DNA from: Streptomyces avermitilis MA-4680 = NBRC 14893
GTDB taxonomy: Bacteria > Actinomycetota > Actinomycetes > Streptomycetales > Streptomycetaceae
DNA: 64,000 bases
Direction of reading: 5' to 3'
Assembly (NCBI RefSeq): GCF_000009765.2
Contig: NC_003155.5
Coordinates: forward strand, 6,758,001-6,822,000
Shown here: positions 61,649 to 64,000 of the stretch, in pieces
Layout: each line of letters starts with the position of its first letter
Numbering within the stretch: the first letter of the stretch is position 1
Position numbers and translations under genes: made by a program
Notes under the pieces: model-generated
Told to the model about the DNA's origin: nothing
The model's input: the letters and a program-made list of their open reading frames with translations, nothing else
Database searches by the model: none

Positions 61649-61715
61649 GCGTTACCCGCCCATGACGAGTGCTCCGGCCACGCGCGGCCGGAGCACTCGT
61701 CATGGCGGGTAACGC
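61649..61715 (+). repeat. 67-base hairpin with 30-bp stem upstream of the repeat-protein gene
   Basis: The arms starting GCGTTACCCGCC (61649) and ending GGCGGGTAACGC (61715) pair over 30 bp with one bulged C; the loop is ACGCGC. It ends 32 bases before the start codon. In a long 5-prime leader it could stabilise the mRNA or terminate upstream transcription. Confidence 0.75.
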
Positions 61716-61747: not shown

Positions 61748-62596
61748 ATGGGACAGCGAGGACGGCACGCGGCGCCCAGGGCAGGAATGCAGAGAGTCCG
61801 CCGGGTGGCGGCCGTGGTGCTTGCCGCCGGTGCACTGGCATCCGCCGGCACCAGTGCCGCGTTTGCCGACATGCTCGAAGACATCCCCCTGAGCGGTGAG
61901 CAGAACATCGACCAGGTCGGGGCGCAGAACCTGGCCTGCGGCAACTCCGCCCGGCTGGTCAGGCTCAACGTCGCGCAGATCGAGCACCGCGACCGCGTCT
62001 GCACCGATGACGACGGCCACACCGGCCACAACAGCGCCCACGCCGGCGGGGCCCGGGCCGAGGGGGGTACCACGCTGGGCCCGCAGGGCAACACCGCTCA
62101 GACGGGCAAGCAGAACCTCGCCTGCGGCAACTCCGCCGACCTGGTCACCGTCAACGTGACCGGGGACATGTACTGGGACACCACCTGCGTGGTCACCGAC
62201 GACGGCCATCACCACCACGGCGGCCACCAGCAGGGTGCGCACGCCGAGGGGGCCCGGGCCGTGGGTGGCACCAGCGTGGGGCCGCAGGCCAACACCGCCC
62301 AGACCGGTCGGCAGAACCTCTACTGCGGCAACTCCGCCGACGCCCTCACCGTCAACGTGATGGGCACCATCAGCAAGCACACCACGTGCGCCGCCGCCGA
62401 CCGCTCCTCCCACGGTTCCGGCGACACCGACCACGGTCGGGCCTCGGTCCTGCCCGGCCAGGCGGTCGGCCCGGAGGCCAACGCCGCCCAGAACGGCAAC
62501 CAGAACCAGACCTGCGGCAACCCCGGTACCGGCGTGGACGTCCCCCTCGGCCGGACCACACGCCAGACCAGCTGCACCGTCCACGCAGGTGCCTGA
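61748..62596 (+). CDS. Secreted curlin-like repeat protein A
   Basis: A 282-residue exported protein. The signal peptide ends near residue 40 (SAGTSAAFADM). The mature part has four repeats of 62, 67 and 63 residues starting at 61904, 62090, 62291 and 62480: N-x-x-Q-x-G-x-Q-N, L-x-CGNSADxxTVNV, then a second Cys ~20 residues later and a His/Gly-rich linker (DDGHHHHGGHQQGAHAEG). Q-x-G-x-x-N spacing is that of curli amyloid repeats, but with two Cys per repeat that could staple strands. ATG 61748 has AAGGAG 7 bases upstream. The His-rich linker could bind metals. No database family is recognised; amyloid behaviour is inferred. Confidence 0.75.
   Translation: MGQRGRHAAPRAGMQRVRRVAAVVLAAGALASAGTSAAFADMLEDIPLSGEQNIDQVGAQNLACGNSARLVRLNVAQIEHRDRVCTDDDGHTGHNSAHAGGARAEGGTTLGPQGNTAQTGKQNLACGNSADLVTVNVTGDMYWDTTCVVTDDGHHHHGGHQQGAHAEGARAVGGTSVGPQANTAQTGRQNLYCGNSADALTVNVMGTISKHTTCAAADRSSHGSGDTDHGRASVLPGQAVGPEANAAQNGNQNQTCGNPGTGVDVPLGRTTRQTSCTVHAGA
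61904..62520 (+). repeat. Four protein-coding repeats of 62-67 codons
   Basis: Repeat starts at 61904, 62090, 62291 and 62480 (186, 201 and 189 bp apart) encode NIDQVGAQNL, NTAQTGKQNL, NTAQTGRQNL and NAAQNGNQNQ, each followed by C-G-N. The last is truncated. Confidence 0.9.
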
Positions 62597-62747
62597 TCAA
62601 CCCGTACCGGCTCCCTGAGCCACGCACCCTGGCGTACGCCGCTTTCCGCCACTTCGCCGCTGAGCCGAGGCGTGCGTCGAGGACCTCGGTCGGCAGGCGG
62701 AACTCGCCGTGTTATGGGGGTAATTCCACTACCGTCCGAGTTAATCC

Positions 62748-62776
62748 GGACAAGGACCCCGTGTCCGTCTTGTCCT
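62748..62776. promoter_or_regulatory. Inverted repeat before the second repeat-protein gene
   Basis: GGACAAGGAC and GTCCGTCTTGTCC pair imperfectly about 70 bases before the GTG start. It may be a terminator for the first gene or a promoter element. Confidence 0.35.
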
Positions 62777-62846
62777 TTCGGCGTTGCCTGGTGAGTGACG
62801 GCCGTCGTACGGGCCGTCGAGGAGATCAACTGAGCTGGGAGGCGTC

Positions 62847-64000
62847 GTGCGCGCGGGAAAAGCCAGGTGCGTAGCGGTTGCGGTGGCCGTCGTTGGCGGA
62901 GTGATGTCGGTGGCCTGCGGGCCGGCCGGTGCGGACACTCCTGGAGCCAGGGCGGAGGGAGGAAGCGGCACGGGGGATGTGTTTCAGACGAACGTCGCGC
63001 AGGAGGGGCGTCAGAACAACCACTGTTCCAACGTGACCGGTGACGAGACGGTGGATCTGACCGGCGGGCGGCTGCAGGGGCGCTGCGTGACCGAGGACGG
63101 CTCCTTCAATGGGTTCTCCAAGGTGCACACCGGTCCCGCCGACGCCAAGGGCGGGGGCGGGACCACCCGGCTCGCCCAGCAGAACGTCGCGCAGCGTGGC
63201 CGCCAGAACAACGACTGCGCCAGCCGGAACACGTTTTCGCTGACGGCGAGCGGTGACAAGATCCAAAGTAACTGTGCCGACGAAGACACCTCCGTCAGCG
63301 ACCACACGTACTCCCAGGGGCGCGGGGCCTCCGCCGAGGGCCGCTCGGGCGGGAACTTCGACCAGCAGAACGTCGCCCAGGCAGGTCGGCAGAACAACAT
63401 CTGCGACAGCCCCGACTATGTGTTCCCCGACCTGACGGGCAGCCGGTTCGACACCGACTGCACGAACAAGGACGCCTCGGTGAGCCGGCACACCTCGGAC
63501 AAGAGCGGTGGCGCCCAGGCCCGTGGGGCACAGGCAGGCTCCTCCGAGGTGCAGGACATCGCCCAGGAAGGCCGGCAGAACAACTTCTGCGCCAACCCCA
63601 ACTCCACGGACGCCGACCCGGTGTCGGACAGCCGTGTCGACGCCGACTGCGCGAACAAGGACGCCTCGCTGAGCGAGAAAACCCGGCACAAGGGCGGTGG
63701 CGCCCAGGCCAAGGGAGGAGCTCTGGCCCAGGAGCAGCAGAACATCGCCCAGGAAGGCCGGCAGAACAACAGCTGCGCCAACCCCAACGTCTCCACTCTC
63801 GACCTCAGCGGTGCGCGGACCGACACCGACTGCGTGAACAAGGACGTCTCCCGCACCAAGCACAGTCTGGTCAAGGGCGGCCCGGCCCGCGCCGAGGGCG
63901 GTTCCGGCGAAGACGTGTTCCAGCAGAACATCGCGCAGGAAGGCCGCCAGAACAACGCCTGCGACAACGCCAACGACTCGGACATCACCGCGACTGGTGG
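62847..64000 (+). CDS. Secreted curlin-like repeat protein B (partial, runs off the window)
   Basis: At least 384 residues are visible, with no stop before the window end. GTG 62847 has GGGAGG 4 bases upstream. A signal peptide (VAVAVAVVGGVMSVACGPAG) precedes six repeats beginning 62991, 63183, 63369, 63555, 63741 and 63927, the last five spaced exactly 186 bp (62 codons). Each has [ND][IV]AQxGRQNNxC, a Cys about 19 residues later in DTDCxNKD-type context, and a Gly/Lys/Ala-rich tail. The same Q-x-G-x-x-N logic as the preceding gene marks a paralogous pair with a different linker. It is probably extracellular fibre material; the end of the protein is unseen. Confidence 0.78.
   Translation, partial: MRAGKARCVAVAVAVVGGVMSVACGPAGADTPGARAEGGSGTGDVFQTNVAQEGRQNNHCSNVTGDETVDLTGGRLQGRCVTEDGSFNGFSKVHTGPADAKGGGGTTRLAQQNVAQRGRQNNDCASRNTFSLTASGDKIQSNCADEDTSVSDHTYSQGRGASAEGRSGGNFDQQNVAQAGRQNNICDSPDYVFPDLTGSRFDTDCTNKDASVSRHTSDKSGGAQARGAQAGSSEVQDIAQEGRQNNFCANPNSTDADPVSDSRVDADCANKDASLSEKTRHKGGGAQAKGGALAQEQQNIAQEGRQNNSCANPNVSTLDLSGARTDTDCVNKDVSRTKHSLVKGGPARAEGGSGEDVFQQNIAQEGRQNNACDNANDSDITATG
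62991..64000 (+). repeat. Six or more 186-bp coding repeats
   Basis: Repeat starts at 62991, 63183, 63369, 63555, 63741 and 63927. Spacing is 192 and then 186 bp four times. The core words NVAQEGRQNN, NVAQRGRQNN, NVAQAGRQNN, DIAQEGRQNN and NIAQEGRQNN are nearly invariant while the linkers vary. The array continues beyond the window. Confidence 0.95.

Follow-up and report, generated by a model that had tools for sequence, protein, structure and literature searches.

Do two neighbouring genes for exported, cysteine-bearing repeat proteins in Streptomyces avermitilis MA-4680 specify a surface fibre of a new kind? The genes, termed P1 and P2 here, lie at the end of a 64,000-nucleotide stretch of this genome (NC_003155.5, positions 6,758,001 to 6,822,000; hereafter the window), and an original prediction made from the letters of the window had proposed their products as a possible new class of surface fibre protein with curli-like repeats. 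The answer favoured here, which stops a little short of being probable, is that P1 and P2 constitute an undescribed secreted two-component structural system, with P2 as the variable subunit and P1 as its fixed partner, resembling the curli pair CsgA/CsgB in design without being a member of that family. Both reading frames were found on the plus strand where they had been placed, at 61748-62596 and from 62847 to the window end:

61748..62596, plus strand: P1 gene, 282 amino acids, ATG start, probably secreted, four two-cysteine repeats
61748..61867, plus strand: putative P1 signal peptide, residues 1-40, ending SAAFA/D, assigned by eye
62847..64000 (the part within the window), plus strand: P2 gene, GTG start, probably secreted, truncated by the window end
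62847..62933, plus strand: putative P2 signal peptide, residues 1-29, ending GPAGA/D, assigned by eye

Retrieval of the downstream sequence, a check suggested with the original prediction, completes P2 as a protein of 594 amino acids with nine repeats, six of which begin within the window; its stop codon lies at L005:3631 (genome C1:6822631), 631 bases beyond the window. An AAGGAG word stands immediately 5' of the P1 ATG, and GGGAGG stands 5' of the P2 GTG at 62847. The signal peptides look Sec-like by eye, consistent with the predicted export of both proteins, which would proceed by Sec. Neither a sortase motif nor a membrane segment is visible by eye at the C-termini of P1 and P2.

The strongest feature of the locus, missed by the original prediction, is a conserved two-gene partnership between a fixed-size and a variable-size member. 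P1 and P2 co-occur in all 11 genomes that carry the family: that of the window, those of Streptomyces anandii, S. aurantiogriseus and strains TRM68367, MMG1533 and SA15, and five further genomes of the window's genus (G253, G350, G844, G976 and G1018). All 11 hosts are taken to be Streptomyces, since G106, a genome of the window's genus, matches S. anandii in its contigs and positions. A single P1 turned up in each genome, and all 10 complete copies have four repeats; the P1 of G1018 is split between two contig ends, its pieces (L164 and L165) having a run of identical words in common. The 17 P2 proteins comprise 5-10 repeats each, and P2 is present in 1-5 copies per genome, the number being one everywhere except in S. 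aurantiogriseus (three) and S. anandii (five); one of the three S. aurantiogriseus genes, L027:5968-7821, is counted among the 17 and is interrupted by an in-frame stop. The partners adjoin in 9 of the 11 genomes, in three arrangements: P1 precedes P2 in the window, P2 precedes P1 in L028, L031, L095 and L161, and the two are divergent in L029, L030, L096 and L164.

The two partners are also related to each other, as had been proposed. Profiles of P1 and P2 repeats match with an hhalign probability of 97.6% (E 2.9e-12), and the P1 repeats form one clade (43/43, support 0.876); P1 and P2 are therefore old sister subfamilies and not the outcome of a recent duplication. The repeats that they share are laid out in the window as follows:

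61895..62035, plus strand: P1 repeat 1 core, from the Q/N word through Cys1 to 11 residues past Cys2
62081..62221, plus strand: P1 repeat 2 core
62282..62422, plus strand: P1 repeat 3 core
62471..62593, plus strand: P1 repeat 4 core, reaching the C-terminus
62982..63119, plus strand: P2 repeat 1 core
63174..63308, plus strand: P2 repeat 2 core
63360..63494, plus strand: P2 repeat 3 core
63546..63683, plus strand: P2 repeat 4 core
63732..63866, plus strand: P2 repeat 5 core
63918..64000, plus strand: P2 repeat 6 core, truncated at the window end; repeats 6-9 go on in L005:2918-3619

Every P1 and P2 repeat of this locus contains exactly two cysteines. A representative P2 repeat reads x-QQN-x-AQEGRQNN-x-C, about 19 residues, C-x-N-x-D-x-S-x-N, and then GGGAxAxGGS. 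A CGN(S/T) word occurs at the first cysteine. To extend these observations across the family, repeats were listed with a simple pattern, yielding 43 P1 and 121 P2 units in 28 open reading frames (ORFs) from the 11 genomes. The pattern itself demands the first cysteine and parts of the Q/N word, so that 100% values for either are meaningless, but the second cysteine and the cysteine total are free of it. Exactly two cysteines occur in 164 of 164 listed units, against about 27% expected if cysteines were scattered randomly over units. When repeats are counted instead with a hidden Markov model (HMM), the number of cysteines from the first repeat to the end is double the repeat number in 27 of 28 ORFs; L027, broken by its in-frame stop, is the sole exception. 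Both cysteine counts leave out the ORFs in which the pattern scored under three hits, namely L032, the final piece of L027 and the P1 piece of L164. The distance from Cys1 to Cys2 is 16-22 residues in 121/121 P2 units and 20-21 residues in 41 of 43 P1 units, the other two having 28. The original description of the repeat, a Q-x-G-x-x-N-like word followed by a cysteine and by a second one usually 16-22 residues on, is thus borne out; the word shows few deviations, its loose form being part of the listing pattern.

The spacing of the repeats is less strict than had been thought. An exact 186-bp period over five spacings had been read from P2, and four of the five are indeed exact, but the first is 192 bp (64, 62, 62, 62 and 62 residues, or 192, 186, 186, 186 and 186 bp). 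Past the window the P2 spacings are 63, 63 and 63 residues, and those of P1, at 62, 67 and 63 residues, are less regular than those of P2. Among all family proteins listed, P2 spacings lie between 59 and 67 residues and P1 spacings between 55 and 75, leaving aside two P2 values (128 and 130), each spanning one copy missed by the pattern. Selection had been proposed to hold both the core and the length of the repeat; given these ranges, length is held only loosely. Conservation within P2 alternates from residue to residue, in D-x-S-x-N (97, 100 and 64%) and in A-x-A-x-G-G (93, 88, 95 and 96%), much as the two faces of a beta strand might show, a pattern that owes nothing to any fold model.

Both proteins are hydrophilic, with grand average of hydropathy (GRAVY) values of -0.58 for P1 and -0.91 for P2. 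The composition of the window P1, whose linkers are rich in His and Asp (14 His in 241 residues), might indicate a secreted matrix protein that binds metal or buffers redox through these linkers and the cysteine pairs, which are present throughout; scattered His occur in other P1 rows as well. Such a function is, however, very improbable. An HHHH run occurs in only one of five P1 rows, that of the window, and P2 has 9 His in 564 residues. Extracellular cysteines should moreover be oxidised, which counts against a metal or redox role.

Whether the pair belongs to a described family was addressed with profile libraries. No Pfam or NCBIfam hit rises above cut-off, whether for P1, for the window part of P2 or for full P2; PHROGs have no match for either protein, and no credible match was found among sequences of the PDB. 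Weak hits were judged to be short chance matches. P1 has one to LRRCT_2 (E 9.8e-05, below its cut-off), the window part of P2 one to YunG (0.081) and full P2 one to DUF3991 (0.11); in a set of 77 single repeats the hits are GlyL_C on five (best 0.0014), Zn_ribbon_NUD on one (0.0069), LRRCT_2 on two (0.12), Curlin_rpt on one (0.14) and three more above 0.05. The curlin model PF07012 finds no match in the window genome at E <= 10, with 3 of 14 control genomes positive, E. coli included, and reaches 1/77 single repeats at E 0.14; the CsgG model (PF03783) finds none in the window genome at E <= 0.1, with 4 of 14 control genomes positive. Direct profile comparison of the repeats likewise gives no support for kinship with curlin, hhalign reaching 2-6% with 6-11 residues aligned.

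A diverged chaplin or rodlin, belonging to the developmental rodlet/chaplin coat of aerial hyphae, would account for the CGN(S/T) word and the second cysteine about 20 residues on, as seen in chaplins, and in the highest-scoring chaplin profile alignment the cysteines do fall opposite cysteines. That alignment stands at 4.5%, however, which is noise level. The chaplin model PF03777 finds six domains in the window genome, none of them at P1 or P2, and chaplin comparisons by hhalign reach 1.8-4.5% (repeats) and 0.9-1.2% (full alignments) locally and 0.1% or less globally. Hydropathy is opposite, the GRAVY of 31 chaplin domains being about +0.50 (of 34 chaplin loci, three were left out as short). 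The rodlin model NF041022 recognises 2/2 tested rodlins, which were taken from other, related genomes, and leaves P1, the window part of P2 and full P2 unmatched at E <= 10; hhalign against rodlins gives about 1% or less. Kinship with either coat protein is largely refuted on sequence and deserves very little credence. No rodlins were found near two chaplin loci of the window genome, where they were sought.

Because none of the chaplin, rodlin, curlin and CsgG models recognises P1 or P2, the curlin and chaplin likenesses raised by the original prediction fail as homology, the latter amounting to CGN(S/T) plus a second cysteine. Its further statement that no known Streptomyces family fits holds against PF03777, NF041022, PF07012, Pfam, NCBIfam, PHROGs and the PDB. 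A literature search over titles and abstracts, mostly without subscription journals, found no description of the family. P1 and P2 are a real, rare protein pair, undescribed in the literature searched, and on the tests above they lie outside the curlin, chaplin and rodlin families.

The resemblances that persist are ones of design. Curli CsgA/CsgB share with P1/P2 secreted tandem repeats, a Q-x-G-x-x-N arc word and a major/minor paralog pair. In Burkholderiaceae curli, most CsgB homologues have five repeats and CsgA has 3-14 (PMC12822426), a split similar to that between P1 and P2. Curlin repeats are 23 +/- 5 residues long (PMC10192328), however, as compared with 59-67 in P2 and 55-75 in P1; P1/P2 additionally differ in carrying two cysteines in every repeat, in lacking a PF07012 match and in that CsgG was not found in the genome. 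Pseudomonas FapC/FapB likewise combine Asn/Gln/Gly-rich imperfect repeats and linkers with a subunit and a nucleator, and the N/Q-rich words of P1/P2 recall the Asn/Gln networks that hold FapC layers (PMC12392863). FapC and FapB almost always have exactly three repeats, and the fap operon includes an outer-membrane pore (PMC12822426); the motif spacing of FapB is unlike that of P2 by eye (PMC12392863), and Fap proteins have either a C-terminal CxxC or one Cys (PMC5618241) rather than a pair per repeat. Chaplins share the genus, secretion and CGN(S/T) at the first cysteine. All chaplins but ChpE contain two cysteines, with an intramolecular disulfide suggested (PMC5618241), a trait common to the P1/P2 units (164/164), although spacing and context differ; chaplin domains are hydrophobic whereas P1/P2 are hydrophilic, and no profile match exceeds noise in either direction. 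Rodlins are also a secreted paralog pair of Streptomyces, both being needed for one surface layer (PMC5314377), but four aligned rodlins have no tandem two-cysteine repeats.

In the two-component system favoured above, Sec would export both proteins, and neither would be anchored covalently. Outside the cell the two cysteines of each repeat would oxidise to a disulfide closing a loop of about 20 residues, and the conserved polar words (QQNxAQxGRQNNxC, DxSxN and GGxAxAxGG) would form beta strands, stacked repeat upon repeat. P2 chains would provide the length of a hydrophilic extracellular fibre or matrix, and P1, found once per genome with four repeats, would nucleate, cap or anchor the P2 polymer, as CsgB does for CsgA. 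A more specific version, judged less likely, is an amyloid-like system in a monoderm, with a disulfide per repeat, nucleation by P1 and a fibre tuned by P2 repeats and copies. This would represent an independent origin of nucleator/subunit logic, unrelated in sequence to curli, chaplins, rodlins and perhaps Fap. If P1 and P2 polymerise, they would be a further independent invention of the subunit and fixed-partner design of curli and Fap, achieved without an outer membrane and with a disulfide in every repeat, and would allow the influence of covalent staples and of repeat number on fibre assembly to be tested. Without polymerisation they would still be a well-defined pair from 11 genomes with no family model in the searched libraries, and a possible source of stable repeat scaffolds.

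Several observations weigh against a stacked, polymerising pair, beginning with the fold. Fold modelling, a check proposed with the original prediction, predicts stacked strands for P2 at low confidence only, by a program known to over-predict them, and the P1 model (five alignment rows) is unusable, with a predicted local distance difference test (pLDDT) score of 40.1. The P2 model, built from five window repeats with ten rows of relatives (11 rows in all), is all beta with repeated strand-turn-strand units, at a low confidence (pLDDT 59.9, predicted template modelling score 0.53). About six strands per repeat are seen in its first repeats, which could accommodate as many as three strand-turn-strand layers, each of about 21 residues. 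Foldseek places FapC (9u4u, E 0.079, probability 0.03) and CsgA (8c50, E 0.24) as the top two of 83 rows, neither significant. VIA-align gives FapC a Z of 5.6 over 93 residues and CsgA 5.5, but its top rank goes to SufB/SufD beta-helices (Z 10.3), so that the amyloid rows do not stand out there; none of the fold matches reaches significance. Given perfect random repeats, AlphaFold2 reportedly builds unrealistic beta-solenoids (PMC11795689), a warning that applies to the P2 model, though the P1/P2 repeats are divergent. An engineered intramolecular disulfide blocked CsgA amyloid, the protein staying soluble until reduced (PMC7264389), so stapled repeats need not polymerise; chaplins, by contrast, need their cysteines, as shown for ChpH (PMC5618241), so that in P1/P2 the disulfide might act either as a staple or as a brake. 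The other points concern the genes. P1 and P2 lie apart in two of the 11 genomes (S. aurantiogriseus and G976), no neighbouring gene was found at every locus compared, one neighbouring pair of P2 repeats has a ratio of nonsynonymous to synonymous substitution (dN/dS) of 1.89, and the family turned up in 4 of the 392 genomes sampled in the genus, which speaks against its being a core surface layer.

The main rival to a fibre is an adhesin of independent small domains, beads on a string in which each repeat is a small domain closed by its disulfide and binds to surfaces, polysaccharides or other cells without polymerising, and in which repeat number tunes reach and avidity. Two cysteines in every listed repeat, a variable repeat number, variable linkers with spacings of 59-67 (P2) and 55-75 (P1), and the low confidence of the stacking models would all suit such a protein. 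The linker of P2 nevertheless has alternating words of its own that are conserved (positions G, A and G-G, 86-96% across 106-107 units), so little of the P2 repeat is free linker, and P2 offers few hydrophobic residues for the core of a small domain (GRAVY -0.91). On this evidence the adhesin is a serious but somewhat unlikely account.

Turnover and distribution of the genes bear on the two-component reading and on another rival to it. Across six ortholog pairs dN/dS is 0.42-0.75; between neighbouring repeats of the window P2 it is 0.42-1.89, exceeding 1 in one of eight pairs. Repeats 6 and 7 of this P2 (63918-64000 plus L005:2918-3241) are 89% identical, with a synonymous divergence (dS) of 0.13, and therefore reflect a recent duplication; P2 repeat number is evidently still changing by tandem duplication. 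The family occurs in at least 4/392 sampled genomes of the genus, at least 4/391 genomes of an order sample (plus one 12-residue fragment in a fifth), at least 1/396 genomes of a phylum sample, that one being the window's own, and at least 2/150 of another sample. These samples overlap and their figures are not additive; all are lower bounds, because the genome searches score only part of the candidates.

Rarity, fast divergence and paralog expansion would be explained if P1 and P2 were secreted competition or decoy molecules, for example antimicrobial or recognition-evading surface material. The 4/392 genomes of the genus sample, the five P2 genes of S. anandii and the three, one broken, of S. 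aurantiogriseus are in line with this. So is the contrast within the glyS neighbourhood shared by the window genome and SA15, where glyS is 92% identical and P1 60%. Mobility genes point the same way: in G253 the P2-P1 pair has a TrwC relaxase gene (L095:6675-8495) immediately upstream, some 0.37 Mb from the contig end, which hints at an accessory region, and an ISL3 transposase gene lies near the pair in TRM68367. Library searches detected no toxin-like or catalytic domain in P1 or P2, however; the compared loci have no immunity-like neighbour in common, and ortholog dN/dS is below 1. Nor did the mobile-element collections searched yield a match, whether for P2 in plasmids, for P1 in phages and plasmids or for the repeat profile in viral contigs. 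A competitive or decoy role is accordingly judged improbable.

The neighbourhood comparison covered all ORFs of the window locus and ten others, with L161-L165 compared through seven query proteins only. Proteins with IPT/TIG repeats adjoin the divergent pairs L029, L030, L096 and L164 and the S. anandii P2 locus L026, and those of L029 and L096 begin with no signal peptide visible by eye:

L029:2329-4764, IPT/TIG-repeat protein
L026:1825-4174, IPT/TIG-repeat protein
L096:7096-8472, IPT/TIG-repeat protein
L030:2-694, IPT/TIG-repeat protein
L164:3710-4183, IPT/TIG-repeat protein

Upstream of P1, 33 bases 5' of its start codon, a near-perfect hairpin occupies 61650-61714, with arms of 30 and 29 nt, one bulged base and a 6-nt loop. 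Thirteen other upstream or intergenic stretches from family loci showed nothing similar: 10 of the 13 have no inverted repeat of >=12 nt, and the remaining three have 12-nt arms (L028 before P1; L095 before P2) or 32-nt arms that are 78% complementary (L028 before P2). A search for a common promoter word in 15 family upstream regions gave best 9-mers in 3/15.

Two stretches outside the intact genes also carry traces of the family. In G813, L166:3790-4608 contains a short remnant like the linker and Q/N word of one P2 repeat, in an unrelated frame and with its cysteines absent, which looks like a decayed P2 copy. In S. anandii, beside the five intact P2 genes, L032:5605-6531 is a degenerate P2-like stretch with broken repeats.

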